DNA of 64,000 nucleotides from Sphaerisporangium corydalis (GTDB lineage: Bacteria; Actinomycetota; Actinomycetes; Streptosporangiales; Streptosporangiaceae): assembly GCF_025506355.1 (NCBI RefSeq), contig NZ_JANZYP010000009.1, positions 62,001-126,000 on the forward strand, in the 5' to 3' direction. Shown here one piece after another: positions 12,863-24,875 of this stretch (positions are counted from its first letter, which is position 1; every line of letters begins with the position of its first letter). Under the pieces are notes generated by a model that was not told the origin of the DNA, searched no databases, and saw nothing but the letters and a program-made list of their open reading frames with translations. A program made the position numbers and the translations under genes.

Positions 12863-12893
12863 TGACCGGCGGGCGGCCCCCCGCCGCCGGTCA
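12863..12893. terminator. GC-rich hairpin over the LuxR-gene stop codon
   Basis: TGACCGGCGG pairs with CCGCCGGTCA at the two ends of 12863-12893, with a further GCGG/CCGC pairing inside. The stop codon of the minus-strand regulator lies in the right arm. A likely bidirectional transcription stop. Confidence 0.6.
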
Positions 12894-15326
12894 GCCCCGG
12901 CGCTCCCCCTCGGGCGCCCGGCCCCCGGGCGGCGGCCCCTCCGGCTCCCCAGCCGGAGGGGCCGCTTCCTGACCGTCCGCGCCCTGCCGGCCCTCGGCCC
13001 CCCGGGCCTGCTCGGCCACCCATACCGCGATCTGCGCGCGGGAGTGGAAGCCCAGTTTGCTCAGGATGTGCTCGATGTGACCCTCCGCCGTCCGCTGGGC
13101 GATGACCAGGGCGGCGGCGATCTCCTTGTTGCTCAGGCCCTGGGCGACGAGCCGGGCGATCTCCCCCTCCCTGCGGGTCAGCGGTGAGGTCCGTACGACG
13201 CCGGGGGAACAGTCGGCGGCGGACGTGCCGATCTCCAGCGCGAAGGCGAGCGCGTCCTCCTCGGACAGCCTGGCGCCCCGCTGGACCTCGGCCTTGAAGC
13301 CCGGTTCGCCCAGAGCCTGGTGCATCCGGAACTCGCACTCGTCGTGGTAGGCCACCAGGTGCCCGAACCCGGACATCGGCGCCCCGTCGGTCCGCCAGAC
13401 GCCCCGCAGGATGCCGAGCAGCCGGGCGGCCCGCTCGTACTGGCCCTCACTGGCGGTGATCCACGCCAGCACCGCCACGTTGACGCCCATCCCCGGCCGG
13501 TCGCGCAGGGTTCCGTCGAACCGCAGGCTCTCCTTGGCCAGATCGCCGGCCCGCACGACGTCGCCCCGGCGCCAGGCGTCGATCCCGAGGGCCATGATGG
13601 CGTACGACCGGTGCCACTCCTCGCCGCGGGCGTCGCAGATGCGCAGGGCCTCCTCGCCGGCCGCGACGGCCCTGTCGGAGTCGCCCTCGAAGGAGTGGGC
13701 GAGGCAGAGCCTGGTCAGCGCCAGCACCTCGCCGGTCTCGTCCCCGCACGCGCGGTGGGCGGCGAGCGCCTCCTCGAACAGCTTGATCGCGGGCTTGGTG
13801 TCGCCCTGGTACAGATCGACCATGCCCGAGAAGAGGGCGACGTAGGCGAGGACCGAGTCCAGCCCGAGCCGCTCCGCGAGGACGCGGCACTCCTCCAGCC
13901 GGGAGACGGCGTACTCGATCTCCCCCTCCAGGATCGCCATCCACGCGTCGCCCCACAGGGCCCGTGCCCGCAGCTCCGACGGCTCGGTGACGACGTGGAG
14001 CCCGTGGCCCACCCAGTGGCGTCCCTCGTCGGAGTGGTGGCCGGTCCTCCAGTGGTACAGCAGGTCGATGGCCGCCCGCAGGCCCTCCTCGGGCTCCCCG
14101 CAGTCGAAGCTGGACTTCAGGGCGACCCGGAGGTTGCCGTGATCGAGCCGCAGCCGCTCCAGCCACCTCACCTGCGAGCCGGTGAAGAGCTGGGCCCTCG
14201 CCTGGGCCGCCAGGTCGCGGTAGTACTCGCGATGGCGCCGCCACAGGTCCCGCTCCTGGCCCGACTCGGCCAGCCGGTCCCCGCCGTACTGCCGGATGGT
14301 CTCCAGCAGCCGGTACCTGACCCCCTGCGGGTGGTCCTCGCGGACCAGCACCGACTTCTCCACCAGGCCGATCACCAGGTCGATGACGTCCTCGCGCTCG
14401 ATGCCGTCACCGGAGCAGACCCCCTCGGCGGCCTCCAGGTCCAGGCCGCCACGGAAGACCGACGCCCGGGCCCACAGCAGCCGCTCGGGGCCGGTGCACA
14501 GGTCGTAGCTCCAGTCGATCAGCGCCCGGAGCGTCTGGTGCCGCTGGGACACGACCCGGGAGCCCGCCGTGAGCAGCCGGAACCGGTCGTCGAGCCGGTC
14601 GAGCAGCTGCTGCACCGACAGGGCCCGCAGCCGGACGGCCGCCAGCTCGATCGCCAGCGGGAGGCCGTCCAGGCGGCGGCAGATCCGCTCCACGGCGTCC
14701 CGGTTCTCGTCGGTGATCGTGAATCCCGGCAGGACCGCCTCGGCCCGCTCCACGAACAGCCGCACCGCGTCCACGTGGGCCAGCGCGTCCGTCGAGAGCC
14801 TCGCCGCGTCGGTGCCGGGGACCGCCAGGGGCATGACGGCCAGCGTCTGCTCGCCGCCGATCCGCAGCGGCTGCCTGCTGGTGACGATGATCCACAGTTC
14901 GGGGAGGGAGGCGAGGAGCTCCTCGGCGAGTACCGCGCAGGCGTGCAGCAGGTGCTCGGAGTTGTCCAGGACCAGCAGCGCCTTCTTGCCGGTGAGGTGG
15001 TCGATGACCGACTCCATCGGGGACCGCGTGAGGTCCTGCCTGAGCCCGAGGACCTCCATGAGGGTCTGCGGGAGCAGGTCGGGGTCGTCCAGGGGGGCCA
15101 GCTCGACCGGCCACACGCCGTCGGGGAACGCCCGCCGCACGTCCGAGGCGACCCTGGCGGCCAGGCGGGTCTTGCCGACCCCGCCGGCGCCGGTGAGGGT
15201 GACCAGCCGCGACCTGGACAGGAGGGTCTTGACCTCGGCCACTTCCCGCCGTCGTCCGACGAAGCTCGTCACTTCGGCGGGCAGCACCCGCCGCCGCTTC
15301 GGGGTGCTCGACGCCATCCGGCTCAC
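12891..15326 (-). CDS. LuxR-family regulator with NB-ARC-like ATPase and TPR region
   Basis: About 811 residues. The N-terminal part carries VTLTGAGGVGKTRLAARVA (Walker A, about 43-61) and KALLVLDNSEHLLHA (Walker B, about 115-129), with the sensor-like WIIVTSRQPLRIGGE. The winged-helix end of the NTPase (QRHQTLRALIDWSYDLC) precedes a TPR-like helical region at about 370-690. The C-terminus is a LuxR/GerE helix-turn-helix (LTRREGEIARLVAQGLSNKEIAAALVIAQRTAEGHIEHILSKL in two halves) and a Pro/Gly tail. GTG 15326 was preferred as start because AGAAGG is 5 nt upstream. Its target genes are unknown; the divergent SDR is the obvious candidate. Confidence 0.9.
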   Translation of the reverse strand: MSRMASSTPKRRRVLPAEVTSFVGRRREVAEVKTLLSRSRLVTLTGAGGVGKTRLAARVASDVRRAFPDGVWPVELAPLDDPDLLPQTLMEVLGLRQDLTRSPMESVIDHLTGKKALLVLDNSEHLLHACAVLAEELLASLPELWIIVTSRQPLRIGGEQTLAVMPLAVPGTDAARLSTDALAHVDAVRLFVERAEAVLPGFTITDENRDAVERICRRLDGLPLAIELAAVRLRALSVQQLLDRLDDRFRLLTAGSRVVSQRHQTLRALIDWSYDLCTGPERLLWARASVFRGGLDLEAAEGVCSGDGIEREDVIDLVIGLVEKSVLVREDHPQGVRYRLLETIRQYGGDRLAESGQERDLWRRHREYYRDLAAQARAQLFTGSQVRWLERLRLDHGNLRVALKSSFDCGEPEEGLRAAIDLLYHWRTGHHSDEGRHWVGHGLHVVTEPSELRARALWGDAWMAILEGEIEYAVSRLEECRVLAERLGLDSVLAYVALFSGMVDLYQGDTKPAIKLFEEALAAHRACGDETGEVLALTRLCLAHSFEGDSDRAVAAGEEALRICDARGEEWHRSYAIMALGIDAWRRGDVVRAGDLAKESLRFDGTLRDRPGMGVNVAVLAWITASEGQYERAARLLGILRGVWRTDGAPMSGFGHLVAYHDECEFRMHQALGEPGFKAEVQRGARLSEEDALAFALEIGTSAADCSPGVVRTSPLTRREGEIARLVAQGLSNKEIAAALVIAQRTAEGHIEHILSKLGFHSRAQIAVWVAEQARGAEGRQGADGQEAAPPAGEPEGPPPGGRAPEGERRG

Positions 15327-15379
15327 CAAAGCCTTCTACCGGTCACGGATGCCGGATAACTGGACACGGCTCACGAGTC

Positions 15380-19003: not shown

Positions 19004-19242
19004 AAGACGATCCGGCCCGGTCCTAACCGGCGGCGCCGTCCGGCACCGGACGGCGGGACCGGACGACCGGGCAGTCGAGAGGGCTCCCGGCCTGCGGCCG
19101 CCGAGGGCCACCCCGTGTTCCTGGCCCGTGACGGCCTCTTTTTCCGGCCATGATCCCGGTTACCCGGCAAACACATGAAATACCCCGCGCCGGAGCCGGA
19201 CCGTGCGATCTCCGTTGTGATCACGGTCCGATTCCATTGAGA

Positions 19243-19905
19243 ATGTCCCACGTGGGCGGTATAGCGACAATCCTTCCTCCGCAGGCCTGGCAACGGCTGA
19301 CAGAGGCGGGTACTCCTCGTCTTTTCGATGCGAACGTCGTTCTGATGAGTCAAGGTGGTCCCGCGGACCGAGTCCTGGTGCTGCTCCGCGGACGCGTCAA
19401 GGTGACACGCGTGGACGCCGAGGGCCGGAATCTCGTTCTGGCCGTTCGCGGTCCGGGAGAACTCCTCGGTGAGATGGCCGTACCCGACGGAAACGTCAGA
19501 TCGGCCACGATCACGACGATCGATCCGTGCGGCGTGCGCGTGATTCCCGTCGACCGATTCCTCGCCTTGGTCGACACGATGAAGCTCGGAAACCTTCTCC
19601 TTCGCCACGCGTTCACGCGGCTACGCGAGGGCGAGGAGCTACGCTCCGAGCTGGCGAGCCTGCCGGCGGGCCAGCGGACGGTACGCGGCCTGCTCCGGCT
19701 GGCGCTTCCCGAGGCTTCGCCCCGCGCTCCGGGAGAGATCGACGTGGGCCTTGACCAGACAGAGCTCGGCAGGGCGATCGGGTTGTCACGGGGGACGGTG
19801 GCCGCGGAGCTGCGGCCCCTGCGCGACCAGGGCCTGATCGACACGAAGCGCGGCCACGTGGTCATCCTCGATCTAGGAGAGCTTCGCCGTCTGCTGGTGG
19901 AATGA
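19243..19905 (+). CDS. Crp/Fnr-type regulator
   Basis: About 220 residues. A cyclic-nucleotide-binding beta-roll spans about 10-120 (LFDANVVLMSQGGPADRVLVLLRG, VRGPGELLGEMAV) and a C-terminal Crp-type winged helix spans about 160-215 (LDQTELGRAIGLSRGTVAAELRPLRDQGLI). The canonical cAMP-binding Arg-Ser pair after GE(L)xG is not clear (the loop reads GELLGEMAVPDGNVRSATI, which retains RSA), so nucleotide binding is plausible. The frame opens at 19150, but ATG 19243 gives the normal domain start. It stands 247 nt upstream of the candidate signalling locus on the same strand and could regulate it; that is inference. Confidence 0.85.
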   Translation: MSHVGGIATILPPQAWQRLTEAGTPRLFDANVVLMSQGGPADRVLVLLRGRVKVTRVDAEGRNLVLAVRGPGELLGEMAVPDGNVRSATITTIDPCGVRVIPVDRFLALVDTMKLGNLLLRHAFTRLREGEELRSELASLPAGQRTVRGLLRLALPEASPRAPGEIDVGLDQTELGRAIGLSRGTVAAELRPLRDQGLIDTKRGHVVILDLGELRRLLVE

Positions 19906-20152
19906 ACGATGCGCGATCCGCGGTGTGTCGGATTTCAGACACATCACGCTGCGGATCCCCTCCAGAGTAGAGATCCCAAGTGATCGTCGGCCGCCGATGA
20001 GTATTGTCCCATTTCTAGTCATTAATATGGATTTATCATCCTATTCTGTTCGATTGCTCGGGGTCATGATGTTTGCTGGAGTTCAGGGGGAACTGCTAAC
20101 ATCTGGCGCCTCAATCCCCCTTAATAGTTATAGATCCATTAAAGGTGGGTCA
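19906..20152. other. AT-richer upstream region of the cyclase-like/NTPase locus
   Basis: This gap of 247 nt is clearly lower in GC than its surroundings (for example TAGTCATTAATATGGATTTA near 20018-20037). It ends in AAAGGTGGG ahead of the ATG at 20153. It likely holds the promoter of the following operon. Low GC at this point also fits an acquired locus. Confidence 0.55.
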
Positions 20153-20941
20153 ATGATGCCCGAAACCCCTCTTGTCAGCCGCTGCGTGATCGGTATCGAC
20201 GTGGAGAAGTACAGCGTCGGCCGCAGAATCCGCCAGCAGGACGGTGTCCAGCGCACTTTGGACACCATGCTCAGCCAGAGTGCCGAGTCGGCGGGGCTTG
20301 ACCGCACGATTTGGGACCGGCTTCCGGCGGGAGACGGGGAAATGGCCGTCCTCCCCGAATGCGATCTGACCACGGTCGTCGGTGGTTTCGTGCGCGATCT
20401 CGACGACCGCCTCGCCGTGCACAACGAGGATCACGGTCCCGGCATGCAGATCAAGCTCCGGATGGCCGCCCACATCGGCCTGCTGAAAAGGAGCCCGCTG
20501 GGGTACGCGGGGCCCGCGCTCGTCGTGCTCAGCCGTCTTCTCAACGCCGACGAGCTGAGGCGGGCGCTGAGGAACGCCGAGGACACCCACCTCGCCCTGA
20601 TCGTGTCCTCCTCCATGTTCCCGGTCGTCGAGTCGGGAGGCCTCGGCCTCCGGCCGTGGACGTTCCGGAAGATCGAGGTGGTGGACGACGCCAAGGGGTT
20701 CAGCGAGGTCGCCTACATCCACCCCGCCAACGAGGTCGCCGCCGGCCGCCCCTCGGACGGGCCTCCCGTGCCAGGACCACCGCCGTCGCGGGAGCCGGCC
20801 GCTCCTGCCGAGGAGAAGGCCGGGAAGGAACGTTCCGGGACGATGATCGGGACCCAGTGGAACATCAGTGGTCCGGACGCCCGGATCAACCACAGCGACC
20901 GGGACATGTACCTCTTCGAAACCACGGCGGACGACGCATGA
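20153..20941 (+). CDS. Nucleotide-cyclase-like domain protein with C-terminal amyloid-type motif
   Basis: A 262-residue protein. Residues 8-190 resemble a class III nucleotide-cyclase homology domain: CVIGIDVEKYS (Asp16 in the first strand), LPAGDGEMAVLP (Asp61), KLRMAAHIGL and GYAGPALVVLSRLLNADELRRAL. Both candidate metal Asp residues are kept. The Asn of the usual VNxAAR motif is replaced by a hydrophobic residue while the Arg is kept, so catalysis is uncertain. A Pro-rich linker (about 195-225) leads to a short motif at 233-253, GTQWNISGPDARINHSDRD plus a Tyr, near the C-terminus. A closely similar motif lies in the next protein. The start with AAAGGTGGG upstream is at ATG 20153; ATG 20156 is equally possible. 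Overlaps the next gene by 4 nt. Confidence 0.75.
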   Translation: MMPETPLVSRCVIGIDVEKYSVGRRIRQQDGVQRTLDTMLSQSAESAGLDRTIWDRLPAGDGEMAVLPECDLTTVVGGFVRDLDDRLAVHNEDHGPGMQIKLRMAAHIGLLKRSPLGYAGPALVVLSRLLNADELRRALRNAEDTHLALIVSSSMFPVVESGGLGLRPWTFRKIEVVDDAKGFSEVAYIHPANEVAAGRPSDGPPVPGPPPSREPAAPAEEKAGKERSGTMIGTQWNISGPDARINHSDRDMYLFETTADDA

Positions 20942-23202
20942 GCGACGAGCCGTCCGGTGCGCGGCAAGAAGCCGGTGATCGGCGCCCGGCGGAGGAGGGC
21001 CCACGACGGCCGGCGGCCGACCCGGAGGCCAAACCGGAAGCCGAACCTGAGGCCGAGCCGGAGGCCAAGCCCGGCCAGGAGGAGCAGAAGCCGGCGGTCT
21101 CCTCTCCCGATGCCCTGGAAGGTGAGTACGAGGAGTCGCTCGCGCCCGAAGAGCAGATGGTGCGCGAGACCCTGGAGCGCGACCGCCGCGGGGAGAACCT
21201 GCGCCGGCTGGTGTCCGACCTGCAGGACACGGCGGGCGCGGACGCCGGCACCTTCGTCGGGAACCAGTTCACGATGGGGGACGACAGCCGGGTCAACCAC
21301 GCCGGCCGCGACTTCTACGTCACCTACGGGAACGCCGGGGAGAGGCCGCAGGCGACCCCGCTCACCAAGGAGCAACTGGCCCGGCTCTCTCCCTCGCACG
21401 TGGTCTCCACCGGAAGCCTCTCCTGCCTCACCGAGCATCTGGGGCCTGGACGTGTCGGCGTCCTTTCCGGTCCGCCAGGCACGGGACGGACGATGACGGC
21501 GCTGGCGGGTCTCCTGCACAGCTCGGCGCAAGGCGCGGCGGAAGCGCGGATCGCCACGTTCCCCCACGGGATCGACCCCTCCCGGCTGAGGACGGGCGAC
21601 CTGCGGGAGAGCACCGGCTACCTGCTCGACGCTTCCGGGGCCGATTGGGTACGGACCAGGGACGACTCGGGGTTCCGGCAGCTGTCCTACCTCGCCACGC
21701 GCACCGGATCCGCCTTCGTGGTCCTGGTCGACGGTGACACACGGTTCGCCCCCGACCATGGTGAGATCCGCGTAGTGCCCCACACGGCCCCCGGCGCCCT
21801 CGCGGTGTTCGAGCGTTGCCTGGCCTACCGGCTGTGGCGTTCCGGCGTGGCCGACGGGAACACGCGGGCCCGCGAGACGGCGTCCGACCCGCGGGTGCGT
21901 GAGGAACTCGGCGACAACAGCCGGCCTCGGGAAGCCCATGCCCTGGCCGGGGCCGTGGCCCAGAGCATGGTCGACGGCCGCCGGCTCGACGAGGTGCTCG
22001 ACGAGCGCCCGCAACGACTGCGCGAGTGCGCCCAGGAACTGCTGTCCGACCAGGGGAGGAAGTACGAGCGGAGCTTCCTGCTGGCGATCTCCGTGCTCGA
22101 CGGGAAGTCCATGGTCAGGACGACGTCGGCCGCCCTCCGCCTGGCCGACCTGGTGGACTCGGTCAAGACCGTGCCACCCGCGCCGGGCTCCCTGTGGTCG
22201 GCCTTCGACGAGACCCTGGGAACGTGGCTGCAGTACGCCGAAGCCGATGACGACTCCGGGCCGGACGAGAGCAGGCGGCGCATCCGGCTGCGCAAGCCGA
22301 GACTGACCACCGCGGTCCTCGACACGGCCTGGCACAACCATCCGGCACTGCGCGAACCGATGATCACATGGCTGCGCGACCTCACCGAGGATCCCGACCC
22401 CGAGATCCGCTTGGCCGCCGCGCAGGCGGTAGGGAAGCTCGCCGTCTACGACTACGCCGAGATCGAGAAGGAGTTCCTCAGCGGATGGGTCCGCTCCAAC
22501 CGCGTCGGCCACCACTGGCTGGCGGCGTGGGCGCTGGAGGTGACCGCCCGGCACCCGGCCGTGACCAGGCAGGTGAACGAACTCCTGCGGACCTTGGCCG
22601 ATGGTTCGCTTGCCCGCCGTTCCACGGCCGTGCGGGCCTACAGCACATCCCTCGGGATCTTGTTCTTCCGTGACGCGCTAACCGCCCTGCGTCGTGCCGC
22701 GTCCCGGGGGAGGCTGCACGACGAGGTCGCGCGTGCGATGAAGGAACTGTTCCTGTCCGGTTTCCGGGACGAGGTCATCGGAGAACTCGCGCGATGGGCT
22801 CGTTCCGGCGAGCCGCTCCTCGACCTCGCCGTCCACCGGTCCCTCACGCGGCTGGCAATGATTCCCGGCGAGGTCGCGGGAGACGATCGGCCGTCGCTGC
22901 TGGCCCTGCTCTGCGACGGCGACGACGAGCGCCGCGTCCAAATCGGGCTGCTCTGGCGGTCCGCCTTCTCCGACGCGGAGGGAAACGGGCCGACCTGGGC
23001 CGCCCTGCTCCATTGGGTGCGGTGCGCGGGCCGGGAGCCTGACGCGGTCCACGCGATCGGCGCACTCGTGGCGGACCTGGGCGAGGACCGGCGGCTGAAC
23101 ACGGCGCTCCGTTTCCATCTGCATTGGTGGGGCCGTCACACCATCTCCCGGCTGACCGCCGAGGAGCTGCTGCCGTATCTGGAGAGGAGGATCCTCCGAT
23201 GA
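20938..23202 (+). CDS. STAND-like P-loop NTPase with HEAT-like repeats and N-terminal amyloid-type motif
   Basis: A 754-residue protein. Residues 1-60 are charged low-complexity sequence with Glu-Ala-Lys-Pro repeats, and 65-95 is a helix. At 104-130 lies the motif GTFVGNQFTMGDDSRVNHAG followed by RDFYVTY. The P-loop is GVLSGPPGTGRTMTALAG (Walker A 178-185), and a probable Walker B is FVVLVDGD (260-267). After a helical middle, residues from about 475 contain HEAT/Armadillo-like helical pairs (DPDPEIRLAAAQAVGKLAVY, HHWLAAWALEVTARHP) to the C-terminus. The order motif, NTPase, repeat sensor is that of NLR-like STAND proteins. No NACHT or NB-ARC signature is complete, so the NTPase class is uncertain. 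Confidence 0.75.
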   Translation: MSDEPSGARQEAGDRRPAEEGPRRPAADPEAKPEAEPEAEPEAKPGQEEQKPAVSSPDALEGEYEESLAPEEQMVRETLERDRRGENLRRLVSDLQDTAGADAGTFVGNQFTMGDDSRVNHAGRDFYVTYGNAGERPQATPLTKEQLARLSPSHVVSTGSLSCLTEHLGPGRVGVLSGPPGTGRTMTALAGLLHSSAQGAAEARIATFPHGIDPSRLRTGDLRESTGYLLDASGADWVRTRDDSGFRQLSYLATRTGSAFVVLVDGDTRFAPDHGEIRVVPHTAPGALAVFERCLAYRLWRSGVADGNTRARETASDPRVREELGDNSRPREAHALAGAVAQSMVDGRRLDEVLDERPQRLRECAQELLSDQGRKYERSFLLAISVLDGKSMVRTTSAALRLADLVDSVKTVPPAPGSLWSAFDETLGTWLQYAEADDDSGPDESRRRIRLRKPRLTTAVLDTAWHNHPALREPMITWLRDLTEDPDPEIRLAAAQAVGKLAVYDYAEIEKEFLSGWVRSNRVGHHWLAAWALEVTARHPAVTRQVNELLRTLADGSLARRSTAVRAYSTSLGILFFRDALTALRRAASRGRLHDEVARAMKELFLSGFRDEVIGELARWARSGEPLLDLAVHRSLTRLAMIPGEVAGDDRPSLLALLCDGDDERRVQIGLLWRSAFSDAEGNGPTWAALLHWVRCAGREPDAVHAIGALVADLGEDRRLNTALRFHLHWWGRHTISRLTAEELLPYLERRILR

Positions 23203-24029
23203 CCCTGGCCCCCGGCGATCTCGCACTGGTCCGTCACGGCTGGTTCGCGAGGTTCGGGCACTGGCTGAAATCCCTGTTCGGTCCGCCGCGCCTCCCTGAC
23301 GAGATCACCGTCCGCCGCATCGACTCTCCCTTCTCCTTCGAGACCCCGGCGCTCAGCGACGGCTTCGCGTTCACGGTGTCGATCCGGTTGCACTGGTCGG
23401 CGACCGGCCGCAGCGACGTCTCCCTCCTGCACGACACGATCGACGTCCACCGCGAGGGGATCCGGTGGCATCTCAGCGACATCGTCCGCCGCATCGCGCG
23501 CCAGTATGGCCCGCACCTCCCCCACGAGGCCGAGGCGGAGATCAACAGGCAGATCAAGGGCGCGCGGCTCTTCCACGAGTACGACGCGGTCCAGCTCGAA
23601 TGCGTCGCCTACTCACGGGTCGGGTCCGCCCTCCCTGTCGTGGGCCTGCAACAGGAGATCTGGCGTGAACGTCTCGCCCGCGTGGAATCCCACGAGGCCG
23701 CCAAGGTCGATATCGACCGGATGCGGGAGCTTCGGCGGCTCTGGCGCGATCTGCTGGCGGAGGGCATCGACGACTGGATCGCCCCGTACGCCGTCCGTCT
23801 CGCCGAGGATCCCCGGAACGTCGCCCAGACCGTCCAGGAGATGTTCGCCCATCGCCGGCAAGAGGCCGAGCGCCTGCTCACGCTGGTCAGGGAGATCATG
23901 ACCACCCAGCAGTCCACGAACGTCTACGAATTCGTGGTGAGCAGCGAGACGGTGCTGCGCAACACCCTCACGATGATGGGCATACCGGTGCCCGACCCCG
24001 ATCCGGAGTCGCTCTTCTCCGGCAGATGA
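23199..24029 (+). CDS. Unrecognised protein of the cyclase-like/NTPase operon (possible SPFH-like fold)
   Basis: A 276-residue protein with no family I recognise. The N-terminus (LAPGDLALVRHGWFARFGHW) may be an amphipathic or membrane-associated helix. A beta strand DGFAFTVSIRLHWSA, helices with conserved-looking IVRRIARQYGPHLPHEAEAEI, a second strand AVQLECVAYSRVG and then a long charged helix (RLARVESHEAAKVDIDRMRELRRLW) follow. That succession is reminiscent of SPFH/band-7 domains, but the match is weak. It overlaps the NTPase stop by 4 nt (ATGA), so its product is made in step with it. No transmembrane helix is evident. Confidence 0.7.
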   Translation: MTLAPGDLALVRHGWFARFGHWLKSLFGPPRLPDEITVRRIDSPFSFETPALSDGFAFTVSIRLHWSATGRSDVSLLHDTIDVHREGIRWHLSDIVRRIARQYGPHLPHEAEAEINRQIKGARLFHEYDAVQLECVAYSRVGSALPVVGLQQEIWRERLARVESHEAAKVDIDRMRELRRLWRDLLAEGIDDWIAPYAVRLAEDPRNVAQTVQEMFAHRRQEAERLLTLVREIMTTQQSTNVYEFVVSSETVLRNTLTMMGIPVPDPDPESLFSGR

Positions 24030-24119
24030 GCGGGCGGCGCCCCCGGCGTCCGGCCGGCCAGGCCCCAACGGCTCAGACGCCTTCGGATGCCTCGTGGACA
24101 CCTCGCCTCAGGAGAGACC

Positions 24120-24875
24120 TTGCTGGACGGAACGGAAATCGGCTGGTTGTGCGGTAGCTGCGGAGCCGATTCGAGGGGCCTTGACCGGTGCCCTGAGTGC
24201 GAGACGGTCCTGGTGTCACACGACTTGCCGCGCCCACCGCGGCGCGTGAGGCGCCGGCACTTCGCGCCGGTGTTCGTGACGCTGGGGGTGGTGGCGATGG
24301 TGGTCACCGTGTGGTTCTCGGCATCAGGCCGTACCGGGCGGCTCCTCGCGGAGCCCCGGCCCTTGGCCGTTCCCACGGCCGCGTCGCCGTCGCCCGCCGC
24401 CACCCCCGAGCCGTCCCCGTCCTCGGCGGACGCGGCCGGCGCACAGGCCATCGCGATCGACGGCCTGTTGTCGAACAGCAGCACGGCCCGCTCCGGCCTC
24501 ACCGCGGCGATCACCAGGGTCCGCGGGTGCGACCGCGAGGGGATGCGGACCATCAACGGGATCGCCCGGGCCCGCCAAAGGCAGCTCAAGCTCGCCCGGT
24601 CCCTGGAGACCGGCCTCCTGACGGAGGGGACGCGGTTGAAGCGATCCCTCATCGAGGCCCTCGACAACTCCTACAAGGCCGACGCCGCCTTCTACTCGTG
24701 GGCGCGGCGCTACCTCCGCGGCGGATGCGGTGGGCGGGTGGAGACGGACCGCGACTACGGCCGCGGTCTGAACTTCTCGTCGGCCGCCGAGACGGCGAAG
24801 GCGGACTTCATCGAACTGTGGAACCCGGTCGCGATGGGCTTCGGCCTGAAGGCACGACAGAGCGGCGGGATCTGA
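24120..24875 (+). CDS. Zinc-ribbon single-pass membrane protein
   Basis: About 251 residues. The N-terminus has a four-Cys zinc ribbon (Cys11, Cys14, Cys24, Cys27 in LCGSCGADSRGLDRCPECE), followed by a basic stretch RPPRRVRRR and one transmembrane helix at about 48-67 (APVFVTLGVVAMVVTVWF). Next come a Pro/Ser/Ala-rich linker and an outer helical domain of about 140 residues (from AIAIDGLLSNSSTARSGL) of unknown family with two Cys. TTG 24120 was chosen as the start because AGGAGAG precedes it; ATG 24087 is in frame but lacks a ribosome binding site. The positive-inside rule places the zinc ribbon in the cytoplasm. Last gene of the locus. Confidence 0.65.
   Translation: MLDGTEIGWLCGSCGADSRGLDRCPECETVLVSHDLPRPPRRVRRRHFAPVFVTLGVVAMVVTVWFSASGRTGRLLAEPRPLAVPTAASPSPAATPEPSPSSADAAGAQAIAIDGLLSNSSTARSGLTAAITRVRGCDREGMRTINGIARARQRQLKLARSLETGLLTEGTRLKRSLIEALDNSYKADAAFYSWARRYLRGGCGGRVETDRDYGRGLNFSSAAETAKADFIELWNPVAMGFGLKARQSGGI

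Follow-up and report, generated by a model that had tools for sequence, protein, structure and literature searches.

In the 64,000-nucleotide stretch of Sphaerisporangium corydalis DNA analysed here (the window; contig NZ_JANZYP010000009.1, positions 62,001 to 126,000, one stretch of the contigs of a 9.48-Mb genome), a five-gene locus encodes a Crp-family regulator, a cyclase-like protein (gene 1), an NTPase-like protein with HEAT repeats (gene 2), a partner termed b7 (gene 3) and a zinc-ribbon membrane protein (gene 4). The cyclase and the NTPase bear a matched, locus-specific terminal motif; the locus is one copy of an operon widespread in actinomycetes, and on the same chassis other effectors replace the cyclase. 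With a probability of roughly 0.55, we read the locus as an NLR-like signalosome driving a nucleotide cyclase, both catalysis and assembly being predicted. It thereby joins two known kinds of system, BASS-type NLR signalling and Pycsar-type cyclic-nucleotide signalling.

A matched motif on effector and receptor

Residues 229-255 of protein 1 (GTMIGTQWNISGPDARINHSDRDMYLF), which lie in a tail that AlphaFold2 models as disordered (pLDDT < 50, residues 210-262), resemble residues 104-131 of protein 2 (GTFVGNQFTMGDDSRVNHAGRDFYVTYG), the local score of the pair being 74 against a maximum of 46 in 5,000 shuffles of the tail. Other loci (L numbers) carry their own version of the motif on both sides, as in L104 (VSGAGSNVATYGAQTNHQNF / VSGQGSNIATYGNQYNVQQF) and L125 (GAGDAFTGDKVGGNKN / GPGDAFTGDKVGGDKN). 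Neither this pairing nor the Crp gene directly 5' of the cyclase had been mentioned in an earlier note on this DNA.

The loci compared comprise the 80 best-scoring NTPase matches, six chosen earlier (for a cyclase, or as the window) and three found via the cyclase, so that all frequencies apply to that sample. L193 and L194 (duplicates of L037 and L039) were excluded from counts other than those of cyclase and Crp residues, and two of the 89 loci (L120, L184) are without an assigned effector. Pairing was tested over 85 loci with low-complexity linkers masked, including 11 of the 13 loci with other effectors. Cognate pairs averaged 48.3 compared with 22.7 for other pairings, and their summed score of 4102 was reached in none of 20,000 re-pairings (maximum 2300). 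After removal of similar loci, the cognate motif ranked first in 27 of 58 cases and among the top three in 38. Within single genomes, 16 cognate pairs scored 47.3 and 22 non-cognate pairs 21.8, none of the latter above 39; co-resident systems therefore look insulated from one another. For seven of the 11 alternative effectors tested, the own NTPase was among the best two matches; it ranked fourth for L137, ninth for L130 and eighteenth for L144, and L131 gave no match. For the window, the motifs most similar to that of the effector belong to BTAD effectors from the same clade.

Two further loci bear on the motif. The genome of the window holds a second system (L140, contig C91:42000-61900), in which cyclase, NTPase and b7 are followed by another cyclase, a crp gene and a third cyclase, and its paired motif differs from that of the window. 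On a Streptomyces plasmid (L217:5756-10510), a cyclase gene precedes that of a TPR receptor with the Walker A sequence GGQGKT and a matching motif; the pairing therefore extends beyond HEAT receptors.

The cyclase and its cyclic-nucleotide partners

The AlphaFold2 model of protein 1 adopts a class III cyclase fold, and class III cyclases fill the PDB structure matches listed for it, which bears out the earlier note's cyclase-like domain with both metal Asp (D16 and D61). Across an 80-row alignment, which includes L193 and L194 and more than one cyclase for some loci, D16 is kept in 79 rows, D61 in 78, R128 in 78 and K181 in 75. On this modelling, the protein is a cyclase of class III fold with most catalytic residues kept and predicted activity. 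PDB sequence searches gave weak matches (Ma1120 and receptor cyclases among eight at E 0.18-1.4; in a second search Ma1120 alone, E 0.24-0.52), and the fold assignment therefore rests on the model. In class III cyclases the active site is formed by a dimer; the positions of the transition-state Asn and Arg in protein 1 are those we presume from the class III motif.

The upstream regulator has the features of the Crp family, namely a cyclic-nucleotide-binding domain (CNBD; Pfam cNMP_binding, 1.8e-17), a Crp-type helix-turn-helix (HTH_Crp_2, 4.8e-13) and the phosphate-binding Arg, which is kept in 47 of 50 proteins. The regulator is exchanged along with the effector: of 74 cyclase loci, 66 have crp upstream, as against none of the 13 loci with other effectors (p 2e-10). 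Palindromes such as GTCATNTGAC and CTGTGCACACGGTCACAG occur in the crp-cyclase gaps of L132, L135 and L190 and of L173, L175 and L179; judged by eye, they are possible Crp operators.

PycTM, the membrane effector of Pycsar, likewise accompanies the cyclase version only, its profile being found in 38 of 74 cyclase loci and none of the 13 others (p 4e-4). In 25 loci it lies 3' of b7, in four 3' of the NTPase, in five between crp and cyclase, and in four 5' of crp; in L087, which of the cyclase-bearing loci is the window's nearest relative, it stands 5' of crp. When the Pfam model was used by itself over 150 genomes, at least 14 of 60 PycTM places lay no more than 7.5 kb from a cyclase or NTPase match on the list (about 0.24 expected), a lower bound because that list is incomplete. 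Furthermore, a plasmid of Streptomyces sp. NBC_00466 carries a Crp gene, a gene on the opposite strand annotated 'Pycsar system effector family protein' (Pfam PycTM, 2.8e-7), a cyclase gene and a TPR gene with a P-loop, the latter two with a matching motif by eye. The genome of the window has one PycTM, on contig C92.

Cyclase-domain relatives fused to TPR-like or GUN4 domains were also seen (L035, L036, L038); in L035 a Crp gene lies upstream, and in L038 a true Band_7 protein follows (Pfam 3.9e-14).

The NLR-like receptor

The earlier note described protein 2 as a P-loop NTPase followed by HEAT-like repeats. The repeats are firm (Pfam HEAT, 3.8e-5; HEAT families in 12-18 of 38 relatives, depending on the Pfam model; confident in the AlphaFold model), while the P-loop is degenerate (GPPGTGRT) and its domain is modelled with low confidence. 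A PDB sequence search returned mainly HEAT proteins (best E 0.02), and Foldseek placed NLRC4 second (E 5.1e-4, TM-score 0.16) amid HEAT proteins and subunits of the origin recognition complex. The nearest Pfam NTPase family is nSTAND3 (PF20720), matched by four of the 38 relatives (best E 2.1e-4); the window protein itself is unmatched by that family, and the Walker A Lys is mostly lost among relatives. Of the 89 loci, 34 retain the Walker B-like Asp. By analogy with the iSTAND proteins, the inactive STAND proteins treated in excerpts of Kaur et al. 2020 (PMC7159879), the NTPase domain may bind nucleotide rather than hydrolyse it. The HEAT solenoid, as modelled, is the probable sensor.

Operon conservation, distribution and mobility

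Gene order was followed with profiles of four proteins over 66 loci (60 found via the NTPase profile, five via the cyclase, and the window). The order crp, cyclase, NTPase, b7 occurred in 41, crp, cyclase, NTPase in eight and cyclase, NTPase, b7 in four; the cyclase was directly 5' of the NTPase in 53 and missing there in 13. Outside the GTDB family of the window this arrangement held in 18 of 20 loci and, when loci were selected by the NTPase alone, a cyclase lay immediately upstream in 65 of 80, so that the proposed conservation of gene order across actinomycetes was borne out. Homologues lying mostly apart, or an NTPase of a housekeeping family, which the earlier note had named as outcomes that would speak against it, were looked for and not encountered.

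At the thresholds used, the NTPase family is present in 176 of 341 genomes of the window's GTDB family and in 35 of 296 sampled across the class, 19 of the 35 lying outside the family. Cyclase loci were found, among others, in Actinomadura roseirufa, Rhizohabitans arisaemae, Streptosporangium violaceochromogenes, Nonomuraea endophytica and Dactylosporangium sucinum, and in one metagenome-assembled genome, whose locus has the cyclase alone.

The locus is variably present. In each of three congeners the gene to its right has a close counterpart (69-72% identity), beside which the locus genes were not found; one congener (L213) has conserved flanks on both sides with other genes between them, and in the other two the right flank alone is conserved. 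This absence from the matching site is stronger evidence for acquisition than the AT-richer leader that had been offered as a sign of it: the crp-cyclase gap has a GC content of 0.49 in the window against a median of 0.63 over 67 loci, such gaps are GC-poorer in general, and the leader is therefore poor evidence. Related systems also occur on Streptomyces plasmids. Searches of plasmids returned 7, 2 and 6 records, a phage search came back empty, and a single-sequence scan of genome contigs found no relative.

Proximity to defence genes, which the earlier note had named as a finding that would favour a conflict system, was not seen for the window, where PADLOC applied to ten surrounding proteins, the Crp protein included, matched regulator-, CNBD- and CARF-type models only. 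One neighbour (window 12891-15329, minus strand) is an 812-residue protein with an N-terminal P-loop, VTLTGAGG, probably a STAND regulator of AfsR/LuxR type; the PADLOC CARF3 model matches across its C-terminus (2.2e-6).

Exchange of the effector

In 11 loci (L088, L089, L090, L095, L111, L128, L131, L136, L137, L138, L191) a BTAD (SARP-type) factor occupies the cyclase slot; five of these were scanned against Pfam and all five confirmed, and the three partners scanned are HTH_31-DUF5753 proteins. A TIR protein takes the slot in L130 and in L216 (Streptomyces angustmyceticus plasmid p1), and in L144 a small protein without a Pfam match, which we take to be Bell-like. The 13 loci counted as having other effectors are thus 11 BTAD, one TIR and one Bell-like. 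The NTPase clade of the window (seven rows, support 100) contains two cyclase loci (the window and L087) and five BTAD loci, and the tree as a whole, in which 87 of 89 rows carry an effector label, requires at least nine effector changes; it is a quick tree computed without a mixture model.

b7, gene 4 and the layout of the locus

As the earlier note had it, four neighbouring genes run on the plus strand (Table 1), with 4-nt overlaps between genes 1 and 2 and between genes 2 and 3, and with gene 4 after a gap of 57 bp. The steady partner is b7, whose gene follows that of the NTPase in 56 of the 74 loci with a cyclase and in 10 of the 13 where another effector stands. Its supposed likeness to band-7 proteins found no sequence support: Pfam gave no match for the window protein and Band_7 in one of 36 relatives (E 0.016), and the four matches of a PDB profile search (best E 0.016) included no SPFH protein. 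The SPFH label was accordingly dropped. In L044, L046 and L216, genes for an OmpA/vWA protein and a large membrane protein lie 3' of b7.

The ribbon (CxxC...CxxC) and hydrophobic stretch described for gene 4 can be read in its sequence, Pfam DZR falling below cut-off (E 0.057). The gene follows b7 in the window, L087, L088, L089, L095 and L111, with a partial match behind L090, and for that clade the four-gene set of the earlier note is therefore real. Found behind b7 in this clade only, gene 4 is retained as an accessory rather than as a core member, and the suggestion that genes 3 and 4 link the system to the membrane gained no support. The wider gene 4 family occurs in 55 of 120 genomes, often as adjacent pairs off the operon (G001:C590, G048:C259, G067:C26, G098:C1:2210350-2212035).

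Table 1. Features of the locus (window positions)
Feature	Position	Strand	Remarks
Crp-family regulator	19150..19905	+	CNBD and Crp-type helix-turn-helix (Pfam); conserved operon part, outside the coordinates of the earlier note
crp-cyclase gap, AT-richer	19906..20152	+	GC 0.49; presumed operon promoter
Cyclase-like effector protein, 262 aa	20153..20941	+	Class III cyclase fold as modelled, residues about 1-192
Effector-side paired motif, residues 229-255	20837..20917	+	Disordered tail; matches NTPase residues 104-131
NLR-like protein, 754 aa	20938..23202	+	From the N-terminus: disordered segment, paired motif, NTPase domain with degenerate P-loop, then HEAT repeats
Receptor-side paired motif, residues 104-131	21247..21330	+	Precedes P-loop domain of protein 2
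Walker A-like loop GPPGTGRT	21469..21492	+	Arg replaces Lys
HEAT solenoid, confidently modelled, probable sensor	22300..22869	+	pLDDT mostly about 90
b7 (gene 3), 276 aa, conserved partner	23199..24029	+	Profile presence behind NTPase
Zinc-ribbon protein with one membrane helix (gene 4), clade accessory	24087..24875	+	Relatives behind b7 in the window's clade

Comparison with known systems

The closest precedent for the pairing is found in BASS amyloid NLR signalosomes (Dyrka et al. 2020), as described in excerpts of PMC7889193, PMC8086366, PMC12261475 and PMC9815663. Both have neighbouring receptor and effector genes and, on the evidence of those excerpts, a short motif matched between the N-terminus of the receptor and the C-terminus of the effector, several families of such motifs and hosts among multicellular actinomycetes; Bell and TIR, both borne by the present chassis, are on the BASS effector list. 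The differences are that the main effector here is a cyclase with a Crp regulator, that the receptor combines HEAT repeats with a degenerate P-loop, and that the locus has an additional conserved gene, b7. Of the STAND-with-repeats architecture that marks BASS receptors, the HEAT part is clear here, and the NTPase domain is a low-confidence model with a degenerate P-loop.

Pycsar (Tal et al. 2021), as presented in excerpts of PMC10286901 and PMC12657218, shares the class III cyclase fold, a cyclic-nucleotide-binding partner and PycTM, the last beside about half of the cyclase loci. It differs in that the cyclase here bears a tail matched to an NLR-like receptor and the CNBD sits on a transcription factor. 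The label itself was rejected for the locus, as PycC models are unmatched and the window lacks PycTM.

According to excerpts of PMC7159879 and PMC8195603, the VMAP, iSTAND and EAD conflict systems of multicellular bacteria (Kaur et al. 2020, 2021) bring together cyclic-nucleotide cyclases, CRP-like regulators, STAND proteins both active and inactive, Band7 and HEAT, with small homotypic adaptors coupling effectors to sensors. In the present locus, by comparison, a motif of about 27 residues takes the place of an alpha-helical adaptor domain, and operon order is fixed. A MoxR-vWA system was also rejected, a Pfam scan of the five locus genes and three flanking genes having found neither a MoxR AAA+ nor a vWA protein.

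Within the literature searched, no NLR-gated Pycsar system was found. The earlier description of the locus as undescribed thus stands for the combination, within that literature, and falls for the individual parts, which are known.

Proposed mechanism and alternative explanations

The oligomerisation and templating steps proposed here have a precedent in BASS systems, as given in the excerpt of PMC7889193. The HEAT domain would sense an invader or damage, upon which the NTPase domain would oligomerise and its motif form a cross-beta seed, onto which the disordered tail of the cyclase would be templated. Crowding would then pair the cyclase domains into the dimers on which a class III active site depends, and the paired enzyme would make a cyclic mononucleotide. 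To judge by gene linkage, the Crp regulator would bind this nucleotide and alter transcription and, in relatives, PycTM would bind it and damage the membrane; for the window, the output would be the Crp regulon or a PycTM elsewhere, such as the copy on contig C92. The assignment of the cyclase as signal-making effector and the NTPase as switch and sensor, already made in the earlier note, draws support from gene order, the paired motif, effector exchange and the linked PycTM.

Several observations weigh against this reading. The cognate motif ranked first in 31 of the 85 loci and among the top three in 53, with values of 30 and 46 of 74 for cyclase effectors and of 1 and 7 of 11 for alternative ones; it is not evident in L037, L097, L116, L123, L142 and L131 and weak in L130 and L144. 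An effector motif was closer to its own NTPase than to all other effector motifs in 17 of 58 cases, which disfavours a simple picture of concerted evolution. Where a Walker A loop has Lys, the window protein has Arg, as do 54 of 89 loci, against 25 with Lys; at the position presumed to be that of the transition-state Asn, the window protein and 55 of 80 rows have Val, and 15 rows have Asn. Protein 1 gave no PADLOC match at E up to 1, PycC models included. Additionally, no PycTM lies within the window, 36 of 74 cyclase loci are without one in the stretch examined (often 4-5 kb downstream only), and part of the 38 PycTM calls come from an iterated profile rather than the Pfam model (e.g., L141, L143).

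The matched tails could instead be non-amyloid beta-strand docking peptides, through which the NTPase holds its effector stoichiometrically and releases or activates it on sensing. Any specific pairwise contact would produce pairing and locus-specific divergence; however, the two sides of the motif are alike, as homotypic co-assembly predicts, their placement at the effector C-terminus and receptor N-terminus in adjacent genes is that of BASS pairs in the PMC7889193 excerpt, and TIR and Bell-like effectors use the same slot, all of which makes mere docking improbable. That the cyclase domain is catalytically silent, serving as nucleotide binder or scaffold while Crp answers an unrelated signal, would fit the frequent Val, the lack of a profile match to PycC or any other cyclase family and the inactive cyclase domains of related systems in excerpts of Kaur et al. 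2020 (PMC7159879), but is opposed by the nearly invariant metal Asp pair, Arg and Lys and by the restriction of Crp and PycTM to cyclase loci, and we regard it as decidedly improbable.

The signalling could serve phage defence, regulated death or regulation. A purely regulatory role in development or stress, with transcription through Crp or BTAD factors as output, would be in keeping with the BTAD-type factors in the effector slot and with the absence of a toxic effector adjoining the window locus. The TIR, Bell-like and PycTM proteins on the same chassis, the absence of the locus from the matching site in three congeners and its occurrence on Streptomyces plasmids speak against such a role, which is unlikely though far from negligible; anti-phage or regulated-death signalling in a filamentous bacterium is favoured as most likely.

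Implications

On a broader view, whose chances we consider evenly balanced, the operon would be a modular actinomycete immune chassis in which a HEAT-bearing NLR-like receptor and a fast-diverging, locus-specific motif of amyloid type serve interchangeable effectors, and whose main form is an NLR-gated, Pycsar-like pathway of cyclic-mononucleotide signalling. The candidate effectors, assigned from sequence, would be the cyclase with Crp and PycTM, SARP/BTAD factors with XRE-DUF5753 proteins, TIR, and Bell-like proteins. Two immune principles so far described separately would then be joined.

If the signalosome reading holds, bacterial NLR-like proteins would activate second-messenger synthesis through prion-like templating, in parallel to the clustering of enzymes by receptors, and it would be clear what controls a large family of actinomycete cyclases and Crp regulators that has no name as yet. 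The different motifs would explain how several systems per genome remain insulated, and the pair of proteins would constitute a testable two-part switch for which nature has already supplied the effector swaps.

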